Assembly: GCF_001672295.1 (NCBI RefSeq)
Contig: NZ_JXMS01000020.1
Span: 6,275 to 70,274 of the forward strand
From: Halodesulfovibrio spirochaetisodalis
GTDB taxonomy: Bacteria > Desulfobacterota > Desulfovibrionia > Desulfovibrionales > Desulfovibrionaceae
Direction of reading: 5' to 3'
DNA length: 64,000 bases
Position 1 is the stretch's first letter; each line of letters opens with the position of its first letter. Below the pieces are notes generated by a model that was given only the letters and a program-made list of their open reading frames with translations, ran no database searches and was not told the origin of the DNA. A program made the position numbers and the translations under genes. Positions 8,625-37,922 of the stretch are shown here, in pieces.

Positions 8625-8626
8625 TC

Positions 8627-10911: not shown

Positions 10912-11297
10912 TGAAACACACGAACTCACAGCCTGATCATAAAAAACGCAGTCGGGGCTTCACGATTATTGAAGTACTTGTCGCACTTGTGCTTCTCAGT
11001 ATTGCTGTGCTTATGACAATCGAACTGACCACCCAGAATCAGGAAGCTCTTTCCATGACCCACTTGCAGGACACTGCCACGCTACTGGCAAGAGAAAAGC
11101 TCTTTGAACTGGAACAGGACGGCCTTTCTGCCTCTACTGGTAAATCGGGCGATTTCGGGTCAGCTAATCCAGGATTTACATGGGAAGCTCAGGCGCACTC
11201 TACCAACAGACTTAACAGCTACAGGCTGGAATTAATCGTGACGTGGGGAAAAGAGAAAAAGCGCCATGTTACGTTAGAAAAGATATTTACGGAATAA
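10908..11297 (+). CDS. gspI: type II secretion minor pseudopilin GspI
   Basis: This 129-residue type IV pilin-like protein has a short basic leader. The prepilin peptidase site follows (RG before FTIIEV, with Glu at +5 of the mature chain), then a hydrophobic helix. GspI forms the pseudopilus tip with GspJ and GspK. The assignment to I rather than another minor pseudopilin rests on the I-J-K order and the small size. The start codon overlaps the stop of the hydrolase gene. Confidence 0.85.
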   Translation: MMKHTNSQPDHKKRSRGFTIIEVLVALVLLSIAVLMTIELTTQNQEALSMTHLQDTATLLAREKLFELEQDGLSASTGKSGDFGSANPGFTWEAQAHSTNRLNSYRLELIVTWGKEKKRHVTLEKIFTE

Positions 11298-11304
11298 CAG
11301 CAAG

Positions 11305-12989: not shown

Positions 12990-13010
12990 TTCCACGCAAA
13001 CCGAATATGA

Positions 13011-13047
13011 AGGCTGCATTTCCATATCTATTGGAAGTGCAGCTTTT
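13011..13047 (+). terminator. rho-independent terminator after gspK
   Basis: A 14-bp stem (AAGGCTGCATTTCC with GGAAGTGCAGCTTT, two G-U pairs) around ATATCTATT is followed by TTTTTC. Confidence 0.8.
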
Positions 13048-13146
13048 TCTTTGTGCTAAACTGCAAAGTTGCCTCTCCCCCTTTCCCTTTTTTCAGCCTT
13101 GTCCTACAGTCACGTTGCGTTTTCCCTTCAGCATGGAGTAAGCACA

Positions 13147-15066
13147 ATGGCCGACCAACCGACAATTACCAACAAAGTCACACTATTGCTGGTTTTTATG
13201 TTTTTCTTTTCTGCAACCATCGGCATTACGTACATTTACTACATGAACAAGGTGAAGCAGGATGCGGTAACGGAATCACAAACAGCTATGCTTACCGGCT
13301 ACAAGCGAAGTCTTGCCTACTCAATCCGAACCATCTCCGATCTGCTGGGAAACCAGCTCAAAAATATTCCAGAAAATGAACAACAAGCGGCTGTCCAAAA
13401 AGCCATTCAAGACCTGCGCTACGACACTGACGGGTATTATTTTGTATATAACAACAAAGGGGTCAATATCGCCCACCCACTTCATGCTGAATTCATCAAC
13501 ACCAACAGGCTGACCCATGAAGACCAGAACGGGCACAGATACATAGCCGACCTTGCTCAGGCTGCACAAAACGGCGGAGGATATACAACATACTGGTTTT
13601 CCAAACCTGGACAACATACCCCCTTACCCAAACTCGCGTATGCGCAAATGATTCCCGGAACTGACTTCTGGATTGCAACAGGAGTCTATATCGACACCAT
13701 TGATGCAGAGCAAACAGCCCTAGCTAAAAAACTGGAAAGCCACGTACAGAAAGCTATCATCATAGTTTCGGTCGGCACAACTTTTGTCCTGTTTTTCCTC
13801 GTTGTTCCAGCAAGTTTTTACATGATCAACACAATCATCCAACCGTGGAAGCAGATGGAACGAGAACTTCGGCATGCACAGAAAATGGAAGCTATCGGTA
13901 TTTTTGCGGGAGGGATTGCCCATGATTTTAATAATATTCTCGGGGCAATAATATCGTGCAGTGAGCTAGCATTGCTGGAAATTAACAAGAGTATGTCAAC
14001 GCATGAAGACCTGCGACGAATTCTTCAGGCAGCCAATCGTGGTAAGGCACTGGTACGTAAAATCAAGGCATTCAGCACCCGAAACAGCACCCATGTGCAG
14101 CTAATGCGTCCAACCACTGTTCTTCAGGAATGCATGCGCCTGCTTGAGTCAGTTATTCCAGCTACTATTGACGTCTCCGTGCGCAATCAATGTGACTCAG
14201 CTCTCATTTATGCTGACCCTGACCAGTATCTACAAATCCTCATGAACCTATGTACCAATGCCGTACAGGCCATGGATGGGAAAAAAGGCAGCTTACGCAT
14301 TGAACTGGCTGTACGGGAAGTAGGTTTAACAGAAGCCCAGCAAATGAAAATTTCACCATACTATTATGTGGCACTTACCGTTCGCGACACAGGAACAGGA
14401 ATACCGCAGCATCTAGTTGATCAGATATTCGACCCGTTTTACACAACACGGAAAAAAGCCGGGGGAACAGGCTTAGGGTTATCCGTCATTTCCTCCATCA
14501 TAAAACAGAACAAAGGGCACATTAGTGTGGAAAGCACGCCAGATGTCGGCACGTCCTTCACTGTACTTTTGCCCTACGCCGGAAAATCTGAAGAAGAAAC
14601 ACCACAACCGCTCAGTGCAATGCCGGTTCAAGGTGGCGCAGAATCCATCCTGTTTGTGGATGATGACAAGGATCTGGCATATCCGGTTGAAAAACTGTTT
14701 ACGCACTACGGCTACAATGTCTCGATGTTTACCAACAGTCAGGAAGCTCTTGATGCCTTCAAGGCCGCCCCTGAAAAGTTCGATCTGCTATTGACTGATC
14801 AAATGATGCCGCATTTGACTGGCACAGAACTCATTAAAGAAATTCATACAGTTAAGCCAGACATGCCTACAATTTTATACAGCGGATTGGAAGGAAGTGA
14901 CTTGTGCGCTGACACCCCCTCAGAATGGGAGGAACTTGGCGTTACCAAATTCTTTTCAAAACCGTTTGAACCTGCCCTTCTCTGTGAAACAGTACGGCAG
15001 CTGCTCAACGAATCCCGCTCAATAAACAAGGAATCTCATGCAAACACCAGCAATACTCATAATTGA
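13147..15066 (+). CDS. hybrid sensor histidine kinase with periplasmic Cache domain
   Basis: This 639-residue membrane kinase has two transmembrane helices (about 12-34 and 200-225) flanking a single-Cache-type sensor domain (DTDGYYFVYNNKGVNIAHP). The kinase core has the His box in AGGIAHDFNNILGAI, the N box NLCTNAVQAM and the G boxes DTGTGIP and GTGLGLSV. A C-terminal receiver carries Asp in DLLLTDQMMP. I chose the ATG at 13147 because GGAGTAA lies just upstream; the frame is open further back without a signal. It overlaps the regulator gene by 29 bases. Given the operon downstream, it may sense a C4-dicarboxylate (inference). Confidence 0.92.
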   Translation: MADQPTITNKVTLLLVFMFFFSATIGITYIYYMNKVKQDAVTESQTAMLTGYKRSLAYSIRTISDLLGNQLKNIPENEQQAAVQKAIQDLRYDTDGYYFVYNNKGVNIAHPLHAEFINTNRLTHEDQNGHRYIADLAQAAQNGGGYTTYWFSKPGQHTPLPKLAYAQMIPGTDFWIATGVYIDTIDAEQTALAKKLESHVQKAIIIVSVGTTFVLFFLVVPASFYMINTIIQPWKQMERELRHAQKMEAIGIFAGGIAHDFNNILGAIISCSELALLEINKSMSTHEDLRRILQAANRGKALVRKIKAFSTRNSTHVQLMRPTTVLQECMRLLESVIPATIDVSVRNQCDSALIYADPDQYLQILMNLCTNAVQAMDGKKGSLRIELAVREVGLTEAQQMKISPYYYVALTVRDTGTGIPQHLVDQIFDPFYTTRKKAGGTGLGLSVISSIIKQNKGHISVESTPDVGTSFTVLLPYAGKSEEETPQPLSAMPVQGGAESILFVDDDKDLAYPVEKLFTHYGYNVSMFTNSQEALDAFKAAPEKFDLLLTDQMMPHLTGTELIKEIHTVKPDMPTILYSGLEGSDLCADTPSEWEELGVTKFFSKPFEPALLCETVRQLLNESRSINKESHANTSNTHN

Positions 15067-16462
15067 TGATGATCCGGATGTAACGTACGCGCTCAGTCGT
15101 GCGGCACGCCATCTCGGATACACAGCAGACTCGGCTGCAACAATTCATGATGCGCTGCAAAAAGCGACGCAGCAGGAATTTGATGCTGTGTTTCTTGATG
15201 TCCAATTGCCGGACGGCAGCGGCATGGACATTATTACCGACATCATGAATCGTCCGGAGCATCCTGAATTGATCATCATTACTGGAAATGGTGATCCTGA
15301 AGCAGCGGAGCTGGCAATTGCCAGCGGTGCCTGGGATTATGTAGAAAAAGGGGATTCCATCCATACCATTATGGATACCCTGTCCAATGCGTTGGAGTAT
15401 CGTTCTGACAAACTCTCTTCGCGCAAAGTTCGTCAAATTCAGGCATTGCGCAGAGAAAGTATCATCGGAGAAAGCAGTTCCATTACCAGAAGTTTAGAAC
15501 AGGTGGGTAAGCTGGCGGACAGTGACCTTAACGTTCTGCTGACTGGTGAAACCGGTACTGGCAAAGAACTTTTTGCACGTGCCCTGCACAATAACAGCGC
15601 ACGTCGCAACGGCCCGTTCATTGTCGTAGACTGTGCTGCCCTGCCTGAGAATCTGGTAGAAACCATCTTATTCGGGCATGAAAAAGGCACCTTCACAGGT
15701 GCAATGCAAGACAAAGAGGGGCTCATTCTGCAAGCTAACAATGGTACGTTATTCCTAGATGAAGTAGGTGAACTCCCCCTCTCTACACAAAAAGCATTTC
15801 TCCGTGTCCTGCAGGAACGTACTGTACGCCCTCTAGGCAGCAAAAAAGAAATCCCCTGCAACTTCAGACTTATTTCGGCAACCAATCAAAATCTTGATGC
15901 AATGCAGGAAGCTGGAACCTTTCGAACAGACCTTGCCTACCGCCTTTGTGCAGGCAAAATTACGCTCCCCCCTCTGCGAGAACGCCGGGAAGATATTTCA
16001 TTGCTCATTGATCATTACATGACACTATTTTTCAAAAAAAACTGTCTCAACTCCAAAGCCTTCAACCCCAGTGTGCTTACTACGCTGGAAGAGTATGACT
16101 GGCCGGGTAATATCAGAGAACTGGTTAATACAGTTGAATTCATGGTCTCAACATCCCGTAATGAATCACGTATTTTCATTAAACACCTGCCACCGGCGCT
16201 ACGCGCACGCCTTGCGAAAAAGCGTATAACTCCGAATGACCCCGCCGCAACAGGACTACCCTCAAACTTCTCTTATGAAGCGAGCGACGAAGAACTTCCC
16301 ACCATGCAGGAACACAGAAATGCTGTCATTGAAAAAGCAGAACACAGCTACCTGACCCAGCTTTTAAGCTCAACAAAAGGTTCCATAAAGCAAGCAGTCG
16401 AACTTTCTGGACTCTCCCAGTCCCGCCTGTATGCTCTATTAAAAAAGCATCGCATTAAATAG
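15038..16462 (+). CDS. sigma54-dependent response regulator, NtrC family
   Basis: This 474-residue regulator has a receiver (residues 1-120, phospho-acceptor Asp in DAVFLDVQLPDG). An AAA+ domain follows (about 140-370) with Walker A GETGTGKELFARAL and Walker B GTLFLDEVGE, then a Fis-type helix-turn-helix at the C-terminus (GSIKQAVELSGLSQSRLYAL). The sigma54-contact loop reads GTFTGA instead of GAFTGA, a variation that still keeps the key Thr. It is translationally coupled to the kinase. The nearest sigma54 promoter is at 16781, ahead of the fumarate/malate operon, which is its likely target. Confidence 0.93.
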   Translation: MQTPAILIIDDDPDVTYALSRAARHLGYTADSAATIHDALQKATQQEFDAVFLDVQLPDGSGMDIITDIMNRPEHPELIIITGNGDPEAAELAIASGAWDYVEKGDSIHTIMDTLSNALEYRSDKLSSRKVRQIQALRRESIIGESSSITRSLEQVGKLADSDLNVLLTGETGTGKELFARALHNNSARRNGPFIVVDCAALPENLVETILFGHEKGTFTGAMQDKEGLILQANNGTLFLDEVGELPLSTQKAFLRVLQERTVRPLGSKKEIPCNFRLISATNQNLDAMQEAGTFRTDLAYRLCAGKITLPPLRERREDISLLIDHYMTLFFKKNCLNSKAFNPSVLTTLEEYDWPGNIRELVNTVEFMVSTSRNESRIFIKHLPPALRARLAKKRITPNDPAATGLPSNFSYEASDEELPTMQEHRNAVIEKAEHSYLTQLLSSTKGSIKQAVELSGLSQSRLYALLKKHRIK

Positions 16463-16563
16463 CAAGGAGACAATCCCGCACCGTAACCTTCACTCATAAG
16501 GCACAATCTGCTGGATAAAACCTCCATCCTCTCTGAATAGACCCGCTACCCAATAAAACACAA

Positions 16564-16596
16564 AAGGACTGCCAAGTTAGGTAGTCCTTTTTTACG
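16564..16596 (+). terminator. rho-independent terminator after the two-component genes
   Basis: An 11-bp stem (AAAGGACTGCC with GGTAGTCCTTT) with loop AAGTTA is followed by TTTTT. It separates the regulator transcript from the frd operon promoter. Confidence 0.85.
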
Positions 16597-16689
16597 CCTA
16601 CCTTCCCACCACCGTTCATAGTCATCACTAACTCTTCTCAAAGAAGAATACGAAAGAACACCAGTCCTTTTTCTTACCCCACAAGAGAA

Positions 16690-16710
16690 TTTTCCTGCCG
16701 GACAAGAAAA
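16690..16710. promoter_or_regulatory. candidate activator site for the sigma54 promoter
   Basis: TTTTCCTG and CAAGAAAA form a dyad around CCGGA with one mismatched pair. It ends about 70 bases upstream of the -24 element, a usual distance for an NtrC-type enhancer site. Assignment to the regulator encoded at 15038 is inference. Confidence 0.4.
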
Positions 16711-16780
16711 ACTGCGTTTGCACTCATCAATTAAACAGCAACAACCTACTCATTTTACATACTTTAATCTTATTTTCTCT

Positions 16781-16798
16781 TTGGCATACTCTCTGCTT
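16781..16798 (+). promoter_or_regulatory. sigma54 (-24/-12) promoter of the frd-fum-mae operon
   Basis: TTGGCATACTCTCTGCTT matches the TGGCAY-N5-TTGCW consensus. GG is at 16783 and GC at 16795, with exactly ten bases between them. It lies 140 bases before the frdC start and directly downstream of a sigma54-activator gene. Confidence 0.7.
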
Positions 16799-16800
16799 TT

Positions 16801-16827
16801 AGCAAACAAACACCGACCCTGTTTGCT
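16801..16827. repeat. inverted repeat at the predicted transcription start
   Basis: AGCAAACA and TGTTTGCT are perfect inverted half-sites separated by 11 bases. They fall at the transcription start predicted from the sigma54 promoter. They could be a repressor site or a 5' mRNA hairpin; the sequence alone does not decide. Confidence 0.5.
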
Positions 16828-16937
16828 GGGGTCACAGTCCAACAGTAACGGTGCAGAACTAAGCAGAGCAGTTTGAACGTTATCATCAAACAGTTCTTTT
16901 ATCCCCCTGCACCACAAGTATCTGCTAAGGAGAGACC

Positions 16938-17591
16938 ATGGATGCTAGTACGCTTACGCTACATGTAAGAAAAAATGGAGCCGGAGTCGGGCGCTTGGAT
17001 GTAATGCAAATGTTGTCAGGGGTACTTCTTATAGTCTTCCTCTGGGCACACTTAATGCTTGTATCAAGTGTACTTATTAGCCCTAAACTGATGAATGCCA
17101 TCGCGTGGTTCTTTGAAACCACCTATATGGCACAGGTCGGCGGACCACTCATCGGGCTGCTGATTTTCGCTCACTTCCTTCTTGCAGCCCGTAAAATGCC
17201 TTGGCGTGCACAGGAAACAAACGCTTTTGTTAAGCACAGCGTAATGATGCACCATAAAGACACCTGGCTCTGGCTTGCTCAGGTGGGCACCGCTCTTCTC
17301 ATTCTTGTTATGGCTGCCACACATATGTGGGTAGTTCTTACTGATCTTCCTATTACAGCAGCAAAAAGTGCTGCCCGTATCCAGAGCGGAACTTGGCTTC
17401 CGTTCTATCTCATCCTCCTTCCGCTTGCTGAAATTCATGTCGGCATCGGATTCTACCGCATCGGCGTTAAGTACGGATACATCACCAAAGCTAACCGCAA
17501 ATGGTATCAGCGCCTTGAAAACTACATGATGGGCGGCTTCATCACCATCGGCCTGCTTACTCTTATCCGTTTCTTGTTCCTCACGGTTTAA
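16938..17591 (+). CDS. frdC: fumarate reductase/succinate dehydrogenase cytochrome b subunit
   Basis: This 217-residue integral membrane subunit has five predicted helices and membrane-embedded His residues (HLMLVSSVL, HFLLAARKMP, HHKDTWLW, HMWVVL, HVGIGFYRIG) suited to heme b ligation. That is the Wolinella-type diheme quinol:fumarate reductase layout. It anchors FrdAB and exchanges electrons with menaquinone. The start has an AAGGAGAG ribosome binding site. It is the first gene of a seven-gene operon. The enzyme's working direction (fumarate reduction or succinate oxidation) cannot be read from sequence. Confidence 0.93.
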   Translation: MDASTLTLHVRKNGAGVGRLDVMQMLSGVLLIVFLWAHLMLVSSVLISPKLMNAIAWFFETTYMAQVGGPLIGLLIFAHFLLAARKMPWRAQETNAFVKHSVMMHHKDTWLWLAQVGTALLILVMAATHMWVVLTDLPITAAKSAARIQSGTWLPFYLILLPLAEIHVGIGFYRIGVKYGYITKANRKWYQRLENYMMGGFITIGLLTLIRFLFLTV

Positions 17592-17619
17592 CTGCCAACT
17601 GAATTAACAGGATTATATC

Positions 17620-19515
17620 ATGCAAATTATTTATAGTGATTTACTCTGTATCGGCGCAGGGCTTGCCGGAGAACGCGTTGCTGTAGAAGCTGCAAAGGCC
17701 GGTTTCAACGTAACCTGTCTTTCCATTGTTCCTCCACGCCGCTCACACTCTTCCGCTGCACAGGGCGGCATGCAGGCTGCTCTCGGTAATGCCATTATGG
17801 GTGACGGTGACACTCCAGACGTTCACTTTGCTGATACCGTAAAAGGCTCTGACTGGGGCTGTGATCAAGAAGTTGCTCGTATTTTTGCGGATACCGCACC
17901 GATTGTTATGCGCGAAGTTGCACACTGGGGAGTACCATGGAACCGCGTTGAAGCAGGCGTTCACACCTACTACAAGGGCGGTAAGCCATTTGAAGCGGAA
18001 GAAAAGCTCGAAAAGCACGGTCTTATTCACGCGCGCGCCTTCGGTGGCACTGCCAAATGGCGTACCTGCTACACAGCAGATGGAACAGGTCGTTCAGTTC
18101 TTAACACACTTGACTCCATGTGCCTGCGCTACGAAGTCGGTATCCATGACCGTACACAGGCTGAAACACTGATTCATGACGGTGAAAACTGTCTCGGTGC
18201 CATTGTGCGCTGTTTAAAAACCGGTGAACTCAAGGCATACCTTGCCACTGCAACACTTATTGCCACCGGAGGATACGGACGCATCTACAAAGCCACCACC
18301 AACGCAGTTATCTGTGATGGCGGCGGTCAGATTGCAGCTCTGGATACCGGTCTTGTCCCAATGGGTAACATGGAAGCTATCCAGTTCCACCCTACCGGTA
18401 CTGTACCGACAGATATTCTTGTTACAGAAGGCTGCCGAGGTGACGGCGGAACACTTCTGGACGTAAACGAATACCGCTTTATGCCGGATTACGAACCGGA
18501 AAAAGCAGAACTCGCTTCCCGTGACGTTGTATCCCGCCGTATGCAGGAACACATCCGCAAAGGATTGGGCGTTAAATCTCCATATGGCGACCATCTCTGG
18601 CTCGACATCCGCCATCTCGGAGAAAAACACATTACTACCAAACTGCGTGAAGTATATGACATCTGCACGAACTTCCTTGGTGTGAACCCAATCCATGATC
18701 TCATCCCTGTACGCCCGACTCAGCACTACTCCATGGGGGGTATCCGCACTAATAGAGACGGCGCAGCCTACGGACTTAAAGGGTTGTTCTCCGCCGGTGA
18801 ATCCGCTTGCTGGGATATGCACGGCTTCAACCGCTTAGGCGGTAACTCCCTTGCAGAAACCGTTGTTGCCGGACGTTATGTCGGTAAAAAAATTGTTGAG
18901 TTCCTGAAGGGTCATACTGTTGATTTCAAGCAGTCTGCCATTAACGATGCCCACGCTAAAGTAGCAGCCCGCATTATGGAAATGACCAAGAGCAGCAGCA
19001 AACAGGAAAGCGCTATCCAGCTGCGCGACGAAATGCACAGCACCATGATGGATAACGTCGGCATCTTCCGTAACGGAAAAGACCTGCAAAAAGCAGTTGA
19101 TACGCTCGACGAGCTTATCGACCGCTCCAAAAACATTAAGCTGCAAGGCACTGCTATTGGCTTCAATCCGGAAATCTCATTGGCCCTCAGGATACCGGGC
19201 ATGCTCAAACTTGCTCAGTGTACTGCATACGGCGCTCTTATGCGCACAGAATCACGCGGGGCGCATACCCGTGAAGACTTCCCTGAACGTAACGACAAAG
19301 ACTGGCTCAACCGTACACTTGCATACTGGAAAGAAGGTAGCACCCGTCCAGAACTGAAGTATGAAGATGCATCCCCATACTTTGAAATTCCTCCGGGCGA
19401 GCGCGGCTACGGCGGCGGTAAGATCATTGCTGCTGATATTCCGGAAGAAAAGCTTCGTCTGCCAAAAAACAGTGCAGAGAAAAAGAAAGCAAAACAGACC
19501 AAAAAAGCCAGCTAA
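17620..19515 (+). CDS. frdA: fumarate reductase/succinate dehydrogenase flavoprotein subunit
   Basis: This 631-residue subunit carries covalent FAD and the dicarboxylate site. It has the N-terminal dinucleotide fold (CIGAGLAGERVAVEAAKAG) and the flavin-attachment region RRSHSSAAQGGMQAALGN. The active-site stretch is QFHPTG, followed by RPTQHYSMGGI and the C-terminal LGGNSLAETVVAGRYVG. Length and motifs are those of FrdA/SdhA. It follows frdC by 28 bases with an AGGA ribosome binding site and precedes frdB by 11 bases. Confidence 0.95.
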   Translation: MQIIYSDLLCIGAGLAGERVAVEAAKAGFNVTCLSIVPPRRSHSSAAQGGMQAALGNAIMGDGDTPDVHFADTVKGSDWGCDQEVARIFADTAPIVMREVAHWGVPWNRVEAGVHTYYKGGKPFEAEEKLEKHGLIHARAFGGTAKWRTCYTADGTGRSVLNTLDSMCLRYEVGIHDRTQAETLIHDGENCLGAIVRCLKTGELKAYLATATLIATGGYGRIYKATTNAVICDGGGQIAALDTGLVPMGNMEAIQFHPTGTVPTDILVTEGCRGDGGTLLDVNEYRFMPDYEPEKAELASRDVVSRRMQEHIRKGLGVKSPYGDHLWLDIRHLGEKHITTKLREVYDICTNFLGVNPIHDLIPVRPTQHYSMGGIRTNRDGAAYGLKGLFSAGESACWDMHGFNRLGGNSLAETVVAGRYVGKKIVEFLKGHTVDFKQSAINDAHAKVAARIMEMTKSSSKQESAIQLRDEMHSTMMDNVGIFRNGKDLQKAVDTLDELIDRSKNIKLQGTAIGFNPEISLALRIPGMLKLAQCTAYGALMRTESRGAHTREDFPERNDKDWLNRTLAYWKEGSTRPELKYEDASPYFEIPPGERGYGGGKIIAADIPEEKLRLPKNSAEKKKAKQTKKAS

Positions 19516-28357: not shown

Positions 28358-29443
28358 TTACACCTCTTTTTTCTGTTTGAATAAATCCAGCGGATTCATC
28401 GCTACAGTGAAAATACCTGCAACCATCAGAACAGCAGCAGCCCATGCGATCGGAGGCATAGACCAGCCGTCGATACCAAAAGCAATACCGAGAATGATCC
28501 AGCAGCAGAACGGTCCCCAGAAAGAGAAGGTGCCGTTGCAGGACATACCGAGTGCAGCGCCGCACATGCCGTTGCCCTGATACCAGAACATGAATGTCAG
28601 GTATGCACAAAGTCCGCTGATTACAAACCAGTGAATGGAATCACCAGAGGTAAATGCCTGTGTAACAAGAGCGAGGGAGTCAAGACTGCCGGACATAAGA
28701 GCCATTACAGGAATTAAGATAAACAGAGTAGAAAGAGCAGAAGTACTCTGACGGATTGTGATCGCAATCTCTGAGTCAATCATGGATGTGCCGTAACCGC
28801 ACACACAACCTTCAAAGCCCCAACCTACAGCCGCAAGAAATGCAATGCAGATACCGAGGAACTGCCCCTCAGGAGCTTCACCACCAAGGCTGGTGCTTGC
28901 AATCATAAAACTTGCAAGGAAGCAGATAGCAATACCGAGCAGCATACGCGCATTCAGTTCCTGCTTGAACAACACACGACCAAGAATCGCGCCAATGGCA
29001 GGGCAAAGAGCACTGATAGGTACAACAATGGAGCCAGCCAGCTGAAGGCCGACAACATATGCAGTTGTTGCAAGCGGACCACCAATAAGTGCTGCCAGAA
29101 CCATTACAAAGCCCGGTTTAGTTCTGAGACAACGGAAGAAATCACCGAGACGGCCGCGAGCAGCAGCAAGGGAAAGTGCCCATACAGCACTAAAACTGTC
29201 GTTTACAGCAGAACCGACAGCGCCAAGAAAATATGTGACAACAAACGCTGATAATCCTGCGGTGTTTGCACCGTACCAGTCAGCCCACACACCTTTTGCC
29301 ATCCCGAGAGTCAGGAACGCAGTGTACAGGCCATAGAACACACCTGAGAGCAGTGCAATGGTAATGCCTTTTGAACGAAAGCCAGCATCAAGCTTTCGTT
29401 TTGCAAGAATGGCCTCTCTGCTTGGTAAAACTACTTCACTCAT
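28358..29443 (-). CDS. DMT-superfamily permease of the choline locus
   Basis: This 361-residue membrane protein has about ten hydrophobic helices in two EamA-like halves, separated near residue 180 (QFLGICIAFLAAVGWGFEG). It sits in the same strand-run as cutC and cutD. Choline loci need an importer, and no BCCT- or ABC-type choline transporter is present here, so choline uptake is a reasonable guess. Export of trimethylamine or an alcohol is an alternative. The substrate is not evident from sequence. Confidence 0.8.
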   Translation of the reverse strand: MSEVVLPSREAILAKRKLDAGFRSKGITIALLSGVFYGLYTAFLTLGMAKGVWADWYGANTAGLSAFVVTYFLGAVGSAVNDSFSAVWALSLAAARGRLGDFFRCLRTKPGFVMVLAALIGGPLATTAYVVGLQLAGSIVVPISALCPAIGAILGRVLFKQELNARMLLGIAICFLASFMIASTSLGGEAPEGQFLGICIAFLAAVGWGFEGCVCGYGTSMIDSEIAITIRQSTSALSTLFILIPVMALMSGSLDSLALVTQAFTSGDSIHWFVISGLCAYLTFMFWYQGNGMCGAALGMSCNGTFSFWGPFCCWIILGIAFGIDGWSMPPIAWAAAVLMVAGIFTVAMNPLDLFKQKKEV

Positions 29444-29458
29444 AGATAAGAACCTTTT

Positions 29459-29593
29459 TTATTTAAGTTTCTTAATTTCGGTTGCCCATCCATAGGCAAC
29501 ACGCCCTTCATTCATCTCCACATGGCTGAGCATCCAAGCGAGTTGCATCAGTCCGGCGGACCATTGTGAAATGGTAAGGATGTACCTTTGCAT
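29459..29593 (-). CDS. possible 44-residue small protein ahead of the permease gene
   Basis: The frame begins ATG CAA AGG (MQRYILTISQWSAG) and ends KKLK-stop, 15 bases before the permease ATG. GAGGG lies three bases before the ATG and an in-frame TGA lies just upstream, fixing the start. It contains Trp- and Met-rich amphipathic sequence. The short spacing to the next gene suggests a coupled small protein or leader peptide. It is not confirmed. Confidence 0.35.
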   Translation of the reverse strand: MQRYILTISQWSAGLMQLAWMLSHVEMNEGRVAYGWATEIKKLK

Positions 29594-29904
29594 ATGCCCT
29601 CAATCAGGAAAACAGCTTGTTCATACAACTCTTGGCAGGAGAAAAGGCCAACGGCCTGCACACAAATGCCTCCGGTACACAATCGGAGCAGAACAATAAT
29701 ATTACCTGACGATAATGGTCACAGTATGTGGAACTAACAAACCGCACAAAAGATACGGGGCGATTGCACGTTTTGTTATGTATGTATCAGCATTCTTGAT
29801 CTGTTACAGAATGCATAACATCAGGATATCCGGACTACGCACATGTCCCACAACATGGCATTTCCGGCTTCAGCCGTTCTTCCCGGCAGAAGAAACGGCT
29901 GCGC
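29594..29904. other. gap inside the choline locus with hairpin and possible promoter
   Basis: Just beyond the EutQ-like gene is a strong stem (CAGCCGTT, 29871-29878, with AACGGCTG, 29894-29901) lacking a T run. This is a likely attenuator or RNA-processing site. On the minus strand TTGTGC-17-TACTGT near 29720-29750 may be a promoter for the permease genes. No further gene seen. Confidence 0.4.
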
Positions 29905-30216
29905 TTACGCTGCTGGCGAATGCAGGTAAATTCCTTTTTCCCGCAAGCCATTAATAAATGTTGTCAGCATTCCCTGCTCATGCAGCACCAGCAACGCTGA
30001 GTAAATTAACTCACTGCTTATGCCTTCATCACAGGCTGCAACAGGGACAGGCTTACTGCATTCCTGCGGTGCTGACCCCATCACCACTTCAACTCCGGCA
30101 GCAGAAGCAGCATCTTTTGCAGAAGGGGTCAAAATTGTACCGGATTCGACATAAAGTGTTGATTGGCCTTCTTTAACAAGGCATTCAACATCTCTTGCAC
30201 AAAGAACTTTTTTCAT
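29905..30216 (-). CDS. EutQ N-terminal-domain-like microcompartment protein
   Basis: This 103-residue protein matches the beginning of EutQ in pattern: KKVLCARDVECLVKEGQ, then a beta strand, then GTILTPSAKDAASAAGVEVV, where EutQ has the corresponding ITPEAREVAELLG stretch. It lacks the C-terminal cupin domain of EutQ that carries acetate kinase activity. A short helical tail takes its place. GGTGTGGAG precedes the start. A related segment opens EutT corrinoid adenosyltransferases, so it may be a shared targeting or interaction module (inference). Confidence 0.65.
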   Translation of the reverse strand: MKKVLCARDVECLVKEGQSTLYVESGTILTPSAKDAASAAGVEVVMGSAPQECSKPVPVAACDEGISSELIYSALLVLHEQGMLTTFINGLREKGIYLHSPAA

Positions 30217-30261: not shown

Positions 30262-30531
30262 TTAATCAACAGGAAGGTCGCAATCTTCATCAATAATGCC
30301 AACCACCACGGCATCAACCGGCACGTTGACATCATCAAGCATTCTGCTGGCGGCTGACCCTGTACAGACAATAACCCTGTCACCGATTCCTGCACCGATG
30401 GTATCAACAACCATCATGCTCTCTCCGGCACGCGTGCCTCCCACCAGTTCAACAAGCATCAGCTTTAATCCACGCATGGATTCAGCCTTACGGGTGGACC
30501 AGACACTGCTGACGAGTTTTGCAACTAACAT
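30262..30531 (-). CDS. EutN/CcmL-type pentameric vertex shell protein (BMC-P)
   Basis: This 89-residue protein has the vertex-protein fingerprint. It begins MLVAKLVSSVWSTRKAESMRG, continues LMLVELVG and GAGIGDRVIVCTGSAA, and ends DAVVVGIIDE. Five copies cap each vertex of the polyhedral shell. Its ATG overlaps the last codons of the GrpU-like gene by 7 bases. Confidence 0.93.
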   Translation of the reverse strand: MLVAKLVSSVWSTRKAESMRGLKLMLVELVGGTRAGESMMVVDTIGAGIGDRVIVCTGSAASRMLDDVNVPVDAVVVGIIDEDCDLPVD

Positions 30532-30830
30532 GCGTTACAGCCTTCCTTAAGTTTGAACTTAATCTCTGCCATTGCGGACTCAACAGAAGCTGTATCGCCC
30601 ATGATCGCGAGTAAAATCATATTTTGGGGACAACTGCCTTTCACATCTTCCACCACAACTCCGACACTTTTTTCAGCAATATCAGCAGCAACGACCATAT
30701 CGATCATCTTGCCCTGAATAAGACCTACAGCGTCAAACGGCTCTGTAATTGAAGATTTTCCGGAACCGATGCGACGCAGCAGAATATTCATTGCTCCGGC
30801 TGAAGGGGATTTAATTATCCGAAATTCCAT
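30525..30830 (-). CDS. GrpU-like BMC shell protein with a pore cysteine
   Basis: This 101-residue single BMC-domain protein starts RIIKSPSAGAMNILLRRIGS, the style of GrpU proteins of glycyl-radical microcompartments. At the position where BMC-H proteins have their pore loop it reads VKGSCPQNM, placing Cys67 at the pore. GrpU proteins are known to bind an iron-sulfur cluster at the hexamer centre, so electron transfer or cluster delivery across the shell is possible. It is tightly packed between the EutP-like and EutN-like genes. Confidence 0.75.
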   Translation of the reverse strand: MEFRIIKSPSAGAMNILLRRIGSGKSSITEPFDAVGLIQGKMIDMVVAADIAEKSVGVVVEDVKGSCPQNMILLAIMGDTASVESAMAEIKFKLKEGCNAC

Positions 30831-30832
30831 GG

Positions 30833-31327
30833 TTAGTCCTTTTTGACTGTACCTGCTTCAAGCAAATGCCCGATCAGGGCAGAAACACCAAATCCCTTTT
30901 TCACACTGACGTTGAAAAACGGTTCTGGCACGCCATATCTACGAAGCTGCTTTTGACAGAACTCTTCATTTTCCGGCTGAACATCACTATGCGTTATAAC
31001 GCCACTCACAGGACATCCAAACACATCGGCAAGCCCCGGAGCTCCGGCAAAAGAACGCTGTGACCTGCTGACCACAAACAGCACATGGGATGCATTGTTC
31101 TGAGCAAGGGAAATCAAGTGGTTGTACATCCATGGATTTTCGAAATATCCACCCGGAACATCCAGAGTATACCTGCTGTACCAAACGTCCTGACGATGCG
31201 GTACAGGCGATACTTCCGTACTTTTCTCTTTACCGGAAAGATGCTCTGCATACCGGTTCAACACCACTGCAAGAGAGCTCTTCCCGCAGCCCGTGGCACC
31301 TATCAACATTATTCTGCGGTCTGTCAT
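30833..31327 (-). CDS. EutP/PduV-like small GTPase of the microcompartment
   Basis: This 164-residue P-loop protein has G1 IGATGCGKSS and a G3-like DVPGGYFEN. The G4-like THSDVQ replaces TKxD. EutP/PduV proteins associate with the shell and are linked to compartment positioning or assembly. It overlaps nothing but follows the EutS-like gene by 8 bases. Confidence 0.85.
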   Translation of the reverse strand: MTDRRIMLIGATGCGKSSLAVVLNRYAEHLSGKEKSTEVSPVPHRQDVWYSRYTLDVPGGYFENPWMYNHLISLAQNNASHVLFVVSRSQRSFAGAPGLADVFGCPVSGVITHSDVQPENEEFCQKQLRRYGVPEPFFNVSVKKGFGVSALIGHLLEAGTVKKD

Positions 31328-31335
31328 TGCATGCC

Positions 31336-31689
31336 CTATGAACGGGTAACAGCTCCGGCTGTGAAGCCCATATTGCGGGACAACACATCCACCACTGCCT
31401 GCAATGCTGTTTCAACACTTTCCACACTGCCGGTGACAACTACAGACCCTGTAAAACGGTCGAGGAAACCTATTTCCACATCTGCAGTTTTGGTTGCAAT
31501 ATCAGCCGCAATTATCGCGGTCTCAAAAGGAGAAAGAGTTAAAATACCCAACGCACCTTTAGCTTCAACTCCAAGCCTGTCATAAATATCAGGCATGGGC
31601 GCTGCAATAACATGGGCAATGGTCACCTGCTTTCCCGGAACAGTTTCCTGAATAATCCGCTCCAGCTCGCGGGATTGATTACTTTGCAT
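31336..31689 (-). CDS. EutS/PduU-like circularly permuted BMC shell protein
   Basis: This protein has 117 residues from the ATG at 31689, which has AAGGTG six bases upstream; the frame is open three codons further from a GTG. It follows EutS closely: RIIQETVPGKQVTIAHVIA, then GALGILTLSPFETAIIAADI and IGFLDRFTGSVVVTGSVE. Such proteins form hexamers with a small beta barrel over the pore. It is placed directly after cutD. Confidence 0.9.
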   Translation of the reverse strand: MQSNQSRELERIIQETVPGKQVTIAHVIAAPMPDIYDRLGVEAKGALGILTLSPFETAIIAADIATKTADVEIGFLDRFTGSVVVTGSVESVETALQAVVDVLSRNMGFTAGAVTRS

Positions 31690-31738
31690 TCTCAACACCT
31701 TATTATCTGCTTGTGCCAGTGCGATCTCTTCTCAACGG

Positions 31739-32692
31739 TTAGTGCCGGACTATTGAAACCGGAAAATCATGTGCCTTGAATTGATTCTCAACACGCTCAA
31801 GATCGGTTTCGCTCATAGCAAATTCACCGGTCATCGGATATTCCCAACCCAACTGCGCATACTTGTTCACACCCATCTTATGGTACGGAAGCAAGTCAAC
31901 GCCTTTGAAATTTTTACGTCCGAGGAACGGTTTTAAAAAAGCAATCAGCCCTTCAATATCCTCAGGCGCATCATTCACATCTTTCATCAACGGCAATCTG
32001 ATCTTAACGTTATGGCGTTTTTCAATAAGTGCCGTAACGTTCTGCAAAATGGTCTCGTTACGCACGCCGGTAAGTTCGTAGTGCTTGTCTGAATTGATGT
32101 GCTTGATGTCATACAGGAACAAATCCACAAACTCAGCAGCCTTAAGCACTGCTTCCTGCTTTGCATATCCGCAGGTCTCAATAGCTGTATTGATTCCCCG
32201 CTGCTTACAGGTCATCAGCACGTTTGTGGCAAACTCTGGTTGCATCAGCACTTCTCCACCGCCCAGAGTCACACCACCTCCGGATACTTCGTAGAAGGCT
32301 CTATCCTCCTCGATAATATCCATCACCTCAGAGATGGCCTTTTTCTCACCGACGACGGAAAGTGCTGATGCAGCACAGACTTTTTCACATTTCCCGCATC
32401 CGATGCAGTCAATGCTCCCGTTCATCTCATGCAGCGTACCTCCTGCCCCCATGGAGTGAACTCCAACGGGGCACACAGATGCGCATTTGCCGCAATTGAT
32501 GCAGAGATCTTTTTTATAAAGAACCTGAAACTTACGTTTCTGGCCTTCGGGGTTTGAGCACCATTTACAACGCAACGGACATCCCTTGAAAAATACGAGG
32601 GTTCTAACTCCCGGGCCATCGTACATATTGTATTTCTGGACGTTGAAAATCAGTCCCTTTCGTTCAATCATGTCTGTATTCGCTGTAGTCAT
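31739..32692 (-). CDS. cutD: glycyl-radical activating enzyme CutD
   Basis: This 317-residue radical-SAM protein installs the glycyl radical on CutC using S-adenosylmethionine. The CxxxCxxC motif is at Cys38, Cys42 and Cys45 (KGCPLRCKWCSNPEG). A ferredoxin-like insert then carries two further [4Fe-4S] sites (CINCGKCASVCP and CIGCGKCEKVC). The SAM-binding GGE motif appears as TLGGGEVL. It follows cutC by 21 bases, in the usual order. Confidence 0.95.
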   Translation of the reverse strand: MTTANTDMIERKGLIFNVQKYNMYDGPGVRTLVFFKGCPLRCKWCSNPEGQKRKFQVLYKKDLCINCGKCASVCPVGVHSMGAGGTLHEMNGSIDCIGCGKCEKVCAASALSVVGEKKAISEVMDIIEEDRAFYEVSGGGVTLGGGEVLMQPEFATNVLMTCKQRGINTAIETCGYAKQEAVLKAAEFVDLFLYDIKHINSDKHYELTGVRNETILQNVTALIEKRHNVKIRLPLMKDVNDAPEDIEGLIAFLKPFLGRKNFKGVDLLPYHKMGVNKYAQLGWEYPMTGEFAMSETDLERVENQFKAHDFPVSIVRH

Positions 32693-32713: not shown

Positions 32714-35266
32714 CTATATTTCTGTCAGCATAGTTCTGCTGATAATTTCATCCTGTACGTCTTTGCAGAGCTCAACAAAGAATGCTGAGTAGCCCGCAAC
32801 ACGCACAACAAGATCACGGTAATCTTCAGGGCGCTTCTGCGCTTCAAGAAGAACATCGTTATCAAGGTAGTTAAACTGCATTTCACCGTTACCGAGCATG
32901 TTTGCGGTACGGATAAGAGTAATAATGCCTTCTTCACCCTGCGGTGTATCCAGCAGGCCGGACATAATTTTAAAGTTATGCACCATGCCTATGTTCATGC
33001 TGTCGTTCGGCATTTTGGATACAGATTTGATAATGGCTGTAGGGCCTTTGTAGTCTGCACCATGGCTCGGGCTGATACCGTCAGAAAGCGGCATCCATGC
33101 GGCACGACCGTTTGCGGATGCACCGGTAAGCTGACCGAACGGAGTGTTGTTGGAAATGGAAAGAGTACCGTGGCTCAGTACAGAATAGAGAGTCTTGTAC
33201 TTGCGGTGTTCATTTTCTGTGAAGTTAACGAGATCAGCCGCAATAAGGTCTGCATAGTCATCGTCGTTGCCGTACTTAGGTGCTGCAAGACAATCAGCCT
33301 TAATCTGATCAAAGCCCACAAAGTCTGCTTTCAAAGCTTCATTAAGCTGCTGGAGGGTGTATTTTTTCTCATCAAATACAAGTTTCTTGATTGCTGCCAT
33401 GGAGTCGGCGTAGGTAGCCAGACCACTCCAGACTACACCCGGGCCGAAGTTGTACATGGCACCGCCCGCAGAAACGTCACGGCCATTTTCCATACAACCT
33501 TCGTACATGATGGACATAAGCGGCTTAGGAGCAAGCTCTCTATGGACACGCTGAGAAATTACAGTCGCTACGCTTGTAAGCTCTGTAACGTACTTAATCT
33601 GCGCCTTAACAGCTTCTTCAAACTTCTCGTAGGTTGTAAAGCTACTGAGGTCGCCCATATCAGGGCAAACCTGTTTGCCATACCAGAGCGGCACACCGTG
33701 GTTGAGAACCAGCTCAATGCAGATCGGCCACTGGGTGTACCCTGTGGATGTCCACTGATACAGGCGACCTGATTTTTGCGGTTCTACACAACCCATCAGG
33801 CAGTAGTCGCGTGCATCTTCAATAGATACGCCCTTTGCAAGCATCATCTTGATGTGGGTGTCATCAAAGTGAATAGCAGGGAAGCCCATACCCGCACGGA
33901 TTACTTCGATAATCTTGCGCAGATATTTTTGAGGGGACTTACTATGAACACGGGTTGCAAGAGATGGCTGGTATACCTTCACATGACGCACAGCATCCAT
34001 CAGCAGGTAGGTAAGATCGTTTGTTGCATCAAGTCCTTCGCGGGTTACACCGCCGACGCACATGTTAACAAACGGCTGGTAACCTGCGAAGAACTTGGAG
34101 CCGCCCTCACTGGTAATCCACATCATTTCAGACATCTTGATCAGCATACAACCGGCAAGGTCAAACGCTTCATACTCAGTCATACGGCCGGATTCGATAT
34201 CGGCTTTAAAGTACGGGTACATGTACTGGTCGACTCGACCAATAGACATACCTGTCTGGTTTTCTTCAACCACAAGGAGGGACTCAATGGTCCACACAGA
34301 CTGAATTGCTTCCCAGAATGTGCTCGGTTTATGAGCGGGAACACGTGCGTTTACTTCAGAAATTTTCATCAGTTCCGCTTTACGCTGCGGGTTCATTTCC
34401 TGCTGCGCAAGCTGTGCTGCGTATTCAGAAAGTCTGCGTGCGTAAATCATGATACCTTCTGCGGTATCAATTATGGACTTGTAGAAGTATATCTTTTCAA
34501 TATCATCAGGATTCTTGTAGCTCAGCTCCTCAAGGTGTTCCCTTGCTTCTTGCTGAACATCAAGCATACCTTTGTTCATCAGGATAACGTCGTACCCCGG
34601 GTTGGAGTCACCACCGCCGTTCACAGCATGGTATGAGCAATCGGAAACGTAAGACTCACCGGAAAGATCCCAGACACCTGCTTCGCGGTACTGATCTTCA
34701 CAAAACTCATCTACGGATTTGCCTGCCCAGTACGGGAACAGCTCTTCGCGCATGATCTTTTTGTCTTCTTCAGAAATGTAGAACGGGTCCTGACTACGAG
34801 TGCCAATGGTATCAATTTCGTCTTCCATCCAGCGCCACGCAATATCCGGAGAAAAGGCACCGGCACGTGGAGCACCGCAAGGAGCACCTACGATAAGTTC
34901 GTCATTCTGGATTACAAGCGGTGCAGTTTCGCAGCAGTACTTAAAGCACTTTGCACGAAGCAGTACCTTAGGCATGCCCGGATTCTCTTTAGCAATCTTG
35001 GTGATCGCACGGGCACGGTGGGTAGTAATGGACGGCACCTGTTTAAGAAAATTCTCTCTTAAACGAACCTGACGGTCTGTAGGACCTTCTGGAATGCCTG
35101 CGCCATGCTGAGCCGGAGTAAACGCCACAGGGTTGCCTTGGGCAGCCTTGCGTTTCAATACTTCTTCAGTCACTTCTTCGAACATTTTTTTCAAAGAAGC
35201 ACGTTCATCAGGAGTCATATTTTTAGTCGCTTCTGCAAGCTGATTTGATAAATCCCGAATATCCAC
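32714..35266 (-). CDS. cutC: choline trimethylamine-lyase CutC
   Basis: This 850-residue glycyl radical enzyme cleaves choline to trimethylamine and acetaldehyde inside the microcompartment. All characteristic residues of the Desulfovibrio enzyme are present at an offset of four. Cys493 and Glu495 lie in GCVEP, Tyr212 and Asp220 in [10 protein letters not shown], Phe399 in YQPF, and Thr506 and Tyr510 in WTSTGY. The radical glycine is Gly825 in RVAGYSAFF. It is the short form without the long N-terminal extension of Klebsiella CutC. The start is GTG with GAGG upstream; the gene follows the dehydrogenase homologue by 12 bases. Confidence 0.97.
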
Positions 35267-35278
35267 TTACTACCTCAC

Positions 35279-36805
35279 TTATCTTTGAAATCTTTCAGAG
35301 TTAATGTCGGCATCACAGCCCTCCAGTACCTCTTTCAAAATACGGTGTACCGCCTCGAGTGAACTCTGTGAGAAATCTTCCTGCGACACGAACGACTCGC
35401 TCTTGCAAGACAGCGAATTCCTGCCGAAGATTTCTGCACCGACTGATTCTACATTGCGCACGCCGTATCCGACCTTGCGGCGATAAATCAGGTTCATCGG
35501 TGATACATTATCTGAAGTGAATCCCTTTCCAGCCGAGCCGCTACCCAGTGTCATTGAAGGGAACAGGTTGGTGGTCGCGCCCATACTGCCGAATGCAGCA
35601 GGTGTATTTACAAGCACCCTGCCCACCGGCTTTTTAAGCGCAAACTGTGTAATCACGTCTTCATCATTGGAATGGATAACCAGCGTGTGGCCGCAGCGAT
35701 CGCTAAGCAACAGCTCAATGCATTTTTCGCATGCGTGCATCCAGTCCGGTTCAATGTAGAAGCCAAGAACAGGACACAGTTTTTCACGGGAGTACGGATC
35801 AAATTCAGACACGTACTTTCGTTCTGCAATCAAAACTGTGGTGTTCTCCGGCACGGTTATTCCGGCTTTTTTTGCAATAGCTACTGCCGGAATACCGATC
35901 AGATCGTGATTCGGTTTTCCATCTGAATAAAAAAGTAACGAGCCAAGCTTCTCAGCTTCATCGGCTGTCATGAAATACGCACCATTACTTTGCAGCGCGC
36001 TTTTCACCTCTGCCGCCACGCATCCATCCACAACTATGGACTGGCCTGCGGCAGAAACAACACCATGATCAAACGTTTTGCTGGCAATAATATCTTTTGC
36101 AGCCTGCTGAATATCTGCTGTGCGTTCAATAAATGCCGGACCATTTCCGGCACCGCCGTAAATGAACGGCTTGCCGGATTTGCTTGCAGCGTCAAGCATA
36201 CCGGGAACGCCAGTATTCATAATAAGGGAGGCTGCCTTATGCTCCATAAGCTGAACTGTTCCGCTGGTGGCAACTGTATTTAAATATGACAGTGCCCCTT
36301 CAGGGAGTCCGCTTTTATGAGCCGCTTCGATCATAATATCGAGCGTTCTTTTAATTGTTTTCTGAGCCCTTGGATGCGGCGAAAATACAATGGCATTACC
36401 TGATTTAACAGCAATCAATGCTTTGTAGATTGTTGTTGAAACCGGACTGGTAGCCGGACACAACGCCACAATCACGCCTACAGGAACCCCGACATCTTTC
36501 GTCTTCTTCTCAGGGTCCTCATCAATGATACCTACGCAACGGAGTCCTCTCAGGTTCCTGCGGGCAACATTGCACACAAACTCATTTTTTATGAGCTTAT
36601 GCTGCCAGTCACCATATTCCGTTTCTTCATGAGATAAGACCGCAAGAGCCTGCGTATGCTGCTCAAGCGCCTCAGCCATGCTCTCTACGATGGCATCAAG
36701 CTGTTCCTGAGAAAACGCTGCGAGCTGCTTTTGTGCAGCGTATGCATTTTCTGCGAGGATTCTGGCTTCCTGTATAGAAAGAAGATCATTATCGATTATT
36801 GTCAT
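35279..36805 (-). CDS. CoA-acylating aldehyde dehydrogenase homologue, nucleophile Cys replaced by Ser
   Basis: This 508-residue protein has the fold of acetaldehyde dehydrogenases of microcompartments: VPVGVIVALCPATSPVSTTIYKAL, FSPHPRAQKT, and the C-terminal LGSGSAGKGFTSDNVSP. Where AdhE-type enzymes read FDNG-x-ICASEQ, this one reads FDHGVVSAAGQ. The catalytic Cys is therefore Ser251 and the following Glu is Gly. The nearest other Cys is 262. The N-terminal helix (LLSIQEARILAENAYAAQKQ) could be an encapsulation peptide. It lies directly upstream of cutC. It may be inactive or structural, with the working dehydrogenase encoded elsewhere (inference). Confidence 0.88.
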   Translation of the reverse strand: MTIIDNDLLSIQEARILAENAYAAQKQLAAFSQEQLDAIVESMAEALEQHTQALAVLSHEETEYGDWQHKLIKNEFVCNVARRNLRGLRCVGIIDEDPEKKTKDVGVPVGVIVALCPATSPVSTTIYKALIAVKSGNAIVFSPHPRAQKTIKRTLDIMIEAAHKSGLPEGALSYLNTVATSGTVQLMEHKAASLIMNTGVPGMLDAASKSGKPFIYGGAGNGPAFIERTADIQQAAKDIIASKTFDHGVVSAAGQSIVVDGCVAAEVKSALQSNGAYFMTADEAEKLGSLLFYSDGKPNHDLIGIPAVAIAKKAGITVPENTTVLIAERKYVSEFDPYSREKLCPVLGFYIEPDWMHACEKCIELLLSDRCGHTLVIHSNDEDVITQFALKKPVGRVLVNTPAAFGSMGATTNLFPSMTLGSGSAGKGFTSDNVSPMNLIYRRKVGYGVRNVESVGAEIFGRNSLSCKSESFVSQEDFSQSSLEAVHRILKEVLEGCDADINSERFQR

Positions 36806-36852: not shown

Positions 36853-37158
36853 TTACTTCGGAAGAAGCTTTTCTAATGAGTAACGGTCTGTAATTTTGAA
36901 AATGTCCTGATGCGGTGAAGGAATTACGATTGAGCTATGAACTTCCATATCCATTCGTTCAATCGCACTCACACCTGCTTCAACAGCAGAGTTACATGCA
37001 GACACATCACCCTGAACCAGTACAGAAATATATCCTGACGCGGTGTTCTCGTAGCCGACCAGCTCAACATTTGCTGCTTTAAGCATGGCATCTGCTGCTT
37101 CCAGCACATACACAAGGCCAAAAACTTCCACCAATCCCAGTGCGCTTGCTCTACTCAT
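36853..37158 (-). CDS. BMC-H hexameric shell protein (third in row)
   Basis: This 101-residue single BMC-domain protein begins ALGLVEVFGLVYVLEAADAM. The pore loop reads YENTASGYIS, bulkier than its neighbours, which suggests a differently selective pore. The C-terminal tail (ITDRYSLEKLLPK) extends beyond the domain. GGAG precedes the start; the gene follows the previous shell gene by 5 bases. Confidence 0.92.
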   Translation of the reverse strand: MSRASALGLVEVFGLVYVLEAADAMLKAANVELVGYENTASGYISVLVQGDVSACNSAVEAGVSAIERMDMEVHSSIVIPSPHQDIFKITDRYSLEKLLPK

Positions 37159-37163
37159 TCTGG

Positions 37164-37463
37164 CTACTCCACATCAATATCGTGCACGGAAACAATGTCG
37201 CCGACTCTCGGCTCAGGACGTGCCATTACGTTTTTTGCAGTCACTTTGCCGATTCTTTCAGCCGCAGCTGCACCAGCTTCTACTGCTGCCTGCACTGCCG
37301 CAACATCACCCTTGACCATGACGGTAACGAGAGTGGAACCGATGTTCTCATAAGAAACCAACTCGACATCAGCCGCCTTCAACATTGAGTCTGCTCCATA
37401 CAACGCCGGAACCATGCCCAGTGTTTCAATGAGACCCAATGCATTTTCACCGCGATAACGCAT
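37164..37463 (-). CDS. BMC-H hexameric shell protein (second in row)
   Basis: This 99-residue PduA/EutM-like shell protein begins NALGLIETLGMVPALYGADS and has pore loop YENIGSTLVT. It is the first gene after a MerR-type promoter (37514-37544) with a leader of about 45 bases and an AGGAG ribosome binding site. It is thus likely the true head of the cutC-cutD transcript. Confidence 0.94.
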   Translation of the reverse strand: MRYRGENALGLIETLGMVPALYGADSMLKAADVELVSYENIGSTLVTVMVKGDVAAVQAAVEAGAAAAERIGKVTAKNVMARPEPRVGDIVSVHDIDVE

Positions 37464-37594: not shown

Positions 37595-37625
37595 AGGGCT
37601 ACGCACCACACATAGCAGCGCCCTA
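37595..37625 (-). terminator. weak hairpin after the first shell gene
   Basis: AGGGCTACGC and GCAGCGCCCT pair imperfectly, overlapping the stop codon. On the minus strand the stem is followed by GTTTGTGTTTG. It may partly end the P1 transcript, leaving P2 to drive the rest of the operon. Confidence 0.4.
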
Positions 37626-37922
37626 CTTCTTGTTTAATTTTTTCGTTCCTGCCGGAAGAACCGTTTCTACATCAGTATGCGGCCGAGGAATCACATGAAC
37701 AGAAACCACCTCACCCACACGCTTGGCAGCGGCTGCGCCTGCATCTGTAGCAGCTTTAACAGCTCCCACATCGCCCCGTACCATGACAGTCACCAAACCT
37801 GCCCCTATGGACTCCCTGCCCACCAGAGTAACGTTTGCTGCCTTTACCATGGCATCACTGGCTTCCACCGCTCCGATCAGTCCTTTCGTTTCAACCATGC
37901 CTAATGCGTCGCTTCTGCTCAT
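37623..37922 (-). CDS. BMC-H hexameric shell protein (first in row)
   Basis: This 99-residue PduA/EutM-like protein begins [20 protein letters not shown]. The pore loop [11 protein letters not shown] with small residues is that of a standard metabolite-conducting pore. A lysine-rich tail ends it (GTKKLNKK). AGGAG precedes the start. It is separated from the next shell gene by 159 bases containing a second promoter, so it can be expressed in a different ratio. Confidence 0.94.

Follow-up and report, generated by a model that had tools for sequence, protein, structure and literature searches.

A Cys-less aldehyde dehydrogenase of GRM1 choline microcompartments is retained in Halodesulfovibrio spirochaetisodalis after loss of the Cys-bearing copy

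Choline microcompartments produce trimethylamine, which is of interest for the health of the gut and heart. GRM1 loci for such compartments have been described as carrying two aldehyde dehydrogenases (AldDHs), one of them defunct: Axen, Erbilgin and Kerfeld (2014) reported a change of the catalytic Cys to Ser or Pro and suggested a scaffold or a regulator (PMC4207490), and Sutter et al. (2021) noted a 'putatively inactive second copy' in GRM1A and GRM1B (PMC8217296). The core of what we describe, a Cys-less GRM1 AldDH, is thus already known; a functional test of such a protein was not found in the open-licence literature, and one may exist beyond that scope. New here are the retention of the dead copy where the live one has been lost and its absence from CutC genomes found without shell genes. 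A related cargo protein is CutF of GRM2 microcompartments (BMCs), an AldDH with an encapsulation-peptide-like C terminus that cross-links CutC into larger complexes via the CutC N terminus (PMC6971018). The nearest solved folds are those of the acetylating AldDHs of Listeria monocytogenes (3k9d) and Geobacillus (5j78), which are 41 to 47% identical to the protein studied here. Choline induced the AldDH gene next to the GRM1 choline lyase of C. ljungdahlii with a log2 value of 7.2, compared with 5.6 for the other AldDH of the locus, from which pduS and eutT were deleted in the same study (PMC12016505). Judging from the gene order and from the Pro found at the catalytic position in locus L008, the gene with the value of 7.2 is probably the Cys-less copy. 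We call the Cys-less protein CutB for convenience; a CutB also appears in the AldDH list of Ravcheev et al. (2019), and that protein may be another copy.

The window, a 64,000-nucleotide stretch of H. spirochaetisodalis DNA, contains a cut locus with all of its genes on the minus strand. The choline trimethylamine-lyase gene cutC (32714..35266) scored 1,665.7 bits with TIGR04394 (cut-off, 1,050), and cutD (31739..32692), encoding the CutC-activating radical SAM enzyme, scored 533.9 bits with TIGR04395 (cut-off, 360). Three genes for BMC-H shell proteins (36853..37158, 37164..37463 and 37623..37922, the last EutM-like) were recognized by NCBIfam BMC models and PF00936. They are accompanied by genes for a EutS-like shell protein (31336..31698; PRK15468, 121.5 bits against a cut-off of 123), a EutP/PduV-like protein (30833..31327; TIGR02528, 57.8 bits, under the cut-off of 138.35), a divergent BMC-domain protein (30525..30830; PF00936, 23.7 bits against a cut-off of 24.5) and a EutN/CcmL-type vertex protein (30262..30531; NCBIfam matches under their cut-offs). 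The divergent BMC protein contains a GSCPQN stretch and may resemble the Fe-S shell protein GrpU. The locus is of the GRM1 type, with a short CutC, CutD and BMC shell genes; the assignment is based on a CutC of 850 amino acids that lacks the long N-terminal extension of GRM2 CutC (PMC6971018). The gene for CutB (35279..36805, 508 amino acids) was recognized as that of a Cys-less acylating-type AldDH from its ORF and from profile and structure alignments. It resembles the defunct GRM1 AldDH in its setting of cutC and shell genes and in the replacement of Cys by Ser (PMC4207490), and it groups with the Cys-less copies, apart from the Cys-bearing ones. It differs in that the described protein is one of two AldDHs, whereas CutB is the sole AldDH of its locus. 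A scan of genome contigs gave 115 related stretches, of which the best 80 were kept as loci; in 76 of these, cutC started no more than 500 nucleotides downstream of cutB, and about 1.2 kb lay between the two in the other four.

The minus-strand ORF 36805-35279 contains the stretch ...SKTFDHGVVSAAGQSIV..., in which TCT at codon 251 (36055-36053) encodes Ser and GGC at codon 254 (36046-36044) encodes Gly. Aligned with FDNGTICASEQ of 3k9d, CutB reads FDHGVVSAAGQ, which aligns Ser251 with the catalytic Cys and Gly254 with the Glu, and the same placement was obtained with 5j78 and with 44 Cys-bearing paralogues. The initial annotation was therefore right in its coordinates, codons and residue number; the case that would have spoken against it, another Cys in the catalytic position, was looked for in the alignment and was absent, with residues 249 to 253 reading VVSAA. 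In the C. phytofermentans enzyme, C269 is catalytic, H387 is the base, N138 forms the oxyanion site and E357 is a further active-site residue, and the C269A mutation abolishes activity (PMC4762007). We mapped these residues to positions 251, 373, 120 and 341 of CutB by hand from motifs, and C269A and H387A mutant chains in the alignments fixed the equivalence of those two residues. The oxyanion Asn is also absent from CutB (Ser120), whereas 3k9d and 5j78 have both the catalytic Cys and the Asn. With TIGR02518, the family of acylating acetaldehyde dehydrogenases, CutB scored 541.2 bits, under the curated cut-off of 620.1. The proposal that normal thiohemiacetal chemistry is lost is thus well supported, since the Cys is gone, the Asn is replaced by Ser and C269A inactivates the C. 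phytofermentans enzyme, and by its sequence CutB is almost certainly dead as an acylating aldehyde dehydrogenase.

Alignment with relatives beside cutC, the check suggested at the outset, gave the same result throughout. We compared 89 distinct CutB rows of at least 53% identity (the window copy once, the 80 loci and eight rows from class and genus searches) with the 44 paralogues, which were 38 to 53% identical and were picked by identity and length, not by motif; the 80-locus, 89-row and class-survey sets overlap. Cys occurred at residue 251 in none of the 80 loci (the best 80 of 115 stretches) and in none of the 89 rows, which had Ser (57 rows), Pro (25), Ala (4) or Thr (3), and all 44 paralogues had C at the catalytic position. 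Nor was it Cys in any of the 54 genomes read, H. spirochaetisodalis included, out of 56 CutB-bearing Desulfovibrionia genomes (G213 and G237 were left out). Chance or sequencing error is excluded by these counts. A recent pseudogene, toward which the loss of other genes from the cut locus of the window might point, is likewise ruled out by the same Cys loss in relatives and a low dN/dS, and the reading frame is intact; the probability of error or pseudogene is practically nil. In a tree of 140 rows, built by a quick method that gave warnings on some long branches, all 89 Cys-less rows lay beyond one branch with a support of 100, and at least 10 changes at residue 251 were needed on a tree built without active-site columns. 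The simplest reading of these sequences would be one ancestral loss of Cys followed by drift among small residues. Gly254 was found in five of the 89 rows, including that of the window, which form one clade, and Glu was retained in the other 84. Neither the Glu254Gly change nor the Ala and Thr variants are among the features of the defunct GRM1 AldDH in the accessible part of its description. In class-survey CutB sequences (L189-L232), Pro occupied the Cys position in 45 of 53 rows, and in a subset the catalytic His was also replaced by Gln.

The former active site has changed beyond the Cys. Asn120 was replaced by Ser in 85 of the 89 rows and by Gly in one, with Asn in three, and in the class survey Asn was retained in four of 43 rows (L210, L211, L213 and L216). 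Out of 136 positions that were at least 95% conserved in the active paralogues, 34 kept the residue in fewer than half of the CutB rows, and CutB has near-fixed residues of its own in the former active site (S120, V122, V200, G217 and G428). Such residues could speak for an altered enzyme activity, based on Ser251 or on some other chemistry. However, residue 251 varies between Ser, Pro, Ala and Thr, and no nucleophile is kept there; we therefore rejected Ser251 as a new nucleophile, and the changed enzyme considered in the initial annotation is very unlikely. The NAD/CoA pocket raises a different alternative, that CutB binds a cofactor and buffers or senses it inside the shell. Of the 89 rows, 86 have kept Glu341 and 88 have kept His373, Gly218, Gly220 and Asn221 were retained in 89 to 90 of 90, and the C269A mutant from C. 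phytofermentans remains able to fold and has a solved structure with CoA (PMC4762007). However, positions 120, 122, 200, 216, 217, 253 and 428, all fixed in the active paralogues, are altered in CutB, and Gln stood at His373 in 11 of 20 rows from further class genomes, which leaves a cofactor-binding role rather improbable. Conservation of helix 352-366 (DWMHACEKC) at first suggested a binding surface. However, residues 356 and 357 vary in the pattern-free class survey, the invariance of DWMHACEK in the first set was partly an artefact of its use as a search pattern for that set, and Cys359 and Cys362 are also present in 39 and 34 of the 44 active paralogues; the binding surface was dropped as evidence, and so was a metal site.

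An AlphaFold2 model of CutB (41 sequences) had a mean pLDDT of 80.4 and a pTM of 0.73, and its top Foldseek match was 3k9d, with TM scores of 0.82 to 0.83 by query and 0.91 to 0.92 by target. A C-terminal helix resembling an encapsulation peptide was predicted at residues 480 to 507 (35285..35368, minus strand) from the hydrophobic moment relative to shuffled tails and from the model, in which its confidence was moderate to low (ten-residue means dropping from 73 to 45). In 72 of 90 rows, the window copy being counted twice, a segment of the tail after residue 455 exceeded shuffled tails in amphipathicity (P < 0.05), as would be expected of an encapsulation peptide. Active AldDHs also bear encapsulation peptides, so the helix argues for targeting and not for scaffolding. 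Pairwise dN/dS among six genomes was 0.055 to 0.113 in 10 of 15 pairs, and the other five pairs were not computable. The ratio of changes at codon positions 1 and 2 to those at position 3 on the CutB branch was 0.147 in H. spirochaetisodalis and 0.145 in G057, the two lineages without a Cys-bearing partner, both values falling inside the span of 0.074 to 0.176 seen in four partner-bearing lineages. For CutC, the same ratio was 0.049 in H. spirochaetisodalis and 0.055 in G057, so that the CutB/CutC ratio was approximately 3.0 and 2.6 in these lineages versus 1.3 to 2.0 in the four others. CutB change is thus high relative to that of CutC, a hint that selection on CutB is somewhat relaxed where the partner is missing.

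Comparison with another Halodesulfovibrio sp., N3 (L124/L125), identified what has been lost from the locus. N3 had the same gene order as the window plus genes for a 231-amino-acid protein, EutJ, a 214-amino-acid EutQ-like protein, a 277-amino-acid BMC protein, a Cys-bearing AldDH, PduL and another BMC-H protein. In the window, a truncated EutQ-like ORF (29905..30216, minus strand), which matches only residues 1 to 97 of the 214 in the N3 protein, adjoins a 461-bp gap (29444..29904) at the deletion junction. Where this gap lies, N3 has the remainder of the EutQ-like gene together with the genes for the BMC protein, the Cys AldDH, PduL and BMC-H; tblastn found no copies of the N3 extra genes at that place in the window, and the gap held no convincing remnant. 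Next to it lies an ORF for a predicted transporter-like protein (28358..29443, minus strand), syntenic in N3, G057, G049 and G056 and at the cluster end in relatives; it has no Pfam match, so its function is a guess. The Cys AldDH and PduL were also gone from G057 (L154/L155), another genome of the genus, in which the EutQ-like and 277-amino-acid BMC genes are still there and the next BMC-H gene is reduced to its end. A short remnant in G057 (L154 18642-18821 and L155 1046-1158) matches both ends of EutJ, which is mostly gone. In a tree of cutC, cutD and eutS, G057 grouped with N3, apart from H. spirochaetisodalis, and a single clade of H. spirochaetisodalis and G057 was rejected (p-AU, 0.0003). 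Because that clade was rejected and the deletion ends differ, the two genomes lost the Cys AldDH and PduL in separate events, if the locus was vertically inherited.

The initial annotation raised the possibility of a working dehydrogenase elsewhere. This held for most of the relatives examined, whose own clusters include the paralogue; in that form it did not hold for H. spirochaetisodalis itself. In its genome (G000, 99.17% complete), no AldDH of the same subfamily was found elsewhere by protein search or with PF00171 (five matches, including C33 and C1), and PduL (PF06130) was not found. What it has instead is a Cys AldDH on contig C7, 27% identical to CutB and part of a second BMC locus, and an MMSDH-like CoA-acylating AldDH on contig C12 that scored 438.7 bits, just under the family cut-off of 448.5. 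If the cut locus is active, these two enzymes and the products of two AOR-family genes are candidates for taking up its acetaldehyde. The second BMC locus (L093, C7:24000-43900) carries, at 8448-19380, the Cys AldDH together with Pta, Fe-ADH, EutQ- and EutJ-like genes and an RnfC-like protein; its Amidohydro_2 protein (16645-17592) has a helix-like tail by eye. Within the genus, CutB was present in all 10 genomes and the Cys partner in eight, and a second Cys-bearing AldDH of the locus, not found in either the window or the genome of H. spirochaetisodalis, is taken as a variable companion and not as a trait of CutB itself.

Across 348 genomes of Desulfovibrionia, CutC scored over the cut-off in 66, of which 56 had CutB, one (G118) had a partner without CutB and nine had neither. 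A partner of the CutF kind, defined by an E value of at most 1e-80 and 41 to 47% identical, was present in 51 of the 56 CutB genomes, in G294 and G307 on another contig. For 10 of these 51 genomes the Cys of the partner was read, and Cys was present in all 30 of the best paralogue loci, taken one per genome. Such a frequent partner, together with a fold the same as that of the active AldDH, could speak for CutB as a regulatory or stabilizing subunit of the active enzyme (CutF), for example in mixed tetramers. However, five genomes had CutB only (G000, 99% complete; G057, 99%; G152, 98%; G172, 63%; G298, 69%). The lack of a partner in G172 and G298 may be just incompleteness, whereas G000, G057 and G152 are 98 to 99% complete and have a Cys-less CutB with no CutF-kind partner at an E value of at most 1e-80; G152, from the same family, retains the dead copy as a near-complete genome without such a paralogue. 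Since three near-complete genomes have retained CutB while lacking a partner, which two of them lost separately, the regulatory subunit is unlikely.

The distribution of shell genes followed that of CutB where it was searched, namely, in the nine genomes with neither paralogue, the five with CutB only and G118; from the other 51, the loci of the genus were read. PF00936 matches were absent from all nine genomes with CutC and neither paralogue and present in the five CutB-only genomes and G118. Completeness of the nine was 100% (G192), 99% (G374), 93% (G200), 92% (G201), 89% (G060), 84% (G230), 82% (G246), 71% (G191) and 69% (G199). The CutC scores were lower in G060 (1,313 bits) and G374 (1,164 bits, CutC starting at a contig end), and with five of the shell-less genomes only 69 to 89% complete, some of these comparisons are possibly unfair. 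An AdhE-type match of 39 to 40%, by identity alone, was found in G192, G200, G201, G230 and G246, and none at that threshold was found in G060, G191, G199 and G374. In G200, a stretch (L212, C1:33000-50000) carries cutC and cutD without any of the searched cut-cluster proteins nearby. Overall, the counts favor CutB as a protein that tracks the compartment rather than the live dehydrogenase.

Because CutB follows the compartment and not the live dehydrogenase, a structural core role is favored over a regulatory subunit. Retention of the dead copy after loss of the live one, together with its absence from shell-less CutC genomes, argues against CutB being an obligate regulatory subunit of the live AldDH and, short of proof, for a structural role tied to the compartment. 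Of the two roles named in the initial annotation, which are also those suggested by Axen et al. (PMC4207490), the scaffold is thus the favored one, and the regulator fares less well now that CutB is seen without a partner. The basis for a structural role consists of a single clade, the loss of further catalytic residues, an intact modelled fold, low dN/dS, linkage to cutC, co-occurrence with shell genes where tested and retention after partner loss. The CutB of the window belongs to the known lineage of Cys-less AldDHs in GRM1 choline microcompartments, where it most likely works as structural cargo. Its subunits, with the ALDH fold, would assemble into an oligomer, probably a tetramer like those of solved acylating AldDHs (PMC5311937). 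Bearing C-terminal encapsulation helices, this oligomer would help to bring CutC and the enzymatic core together and to anchor them to the shell; we consider this structural role, on balance, somewhat better than an even prospect. There is a likeness to CutF of GRM2, an AldDH cargo with an encapsulation-peptide-like C terminus that enlarges CutC complexes, and a difference in that CutF is described as the aldehyde dehydrogenase of the core (PMC6971018). For the putative scaffold role, the features examined were the encapsulation-peptide-like helix and the gene linkage, and the losses may instead reflect recent decay of the locus, in which the EutQ-like gene is truncated in H. spirochaetisodalis and EutJ is mostly gone from G057.

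We suggest tentatively, and with less than even confidence, that the dead AldDH is a dedicated GRM1 assembly scaffold, needed whenever CutC is packed in a shell and only then, and retainable after the catalytic AldDH and PduL are lost, with acetaldehyde leaving the shell or being handled by other enzymes of the cell. Genomes with the dead AldDH and without a live partner are natural test cases for separating scaffold from regulator, and those with only the dead copy indicate the species in which either role can be sought.
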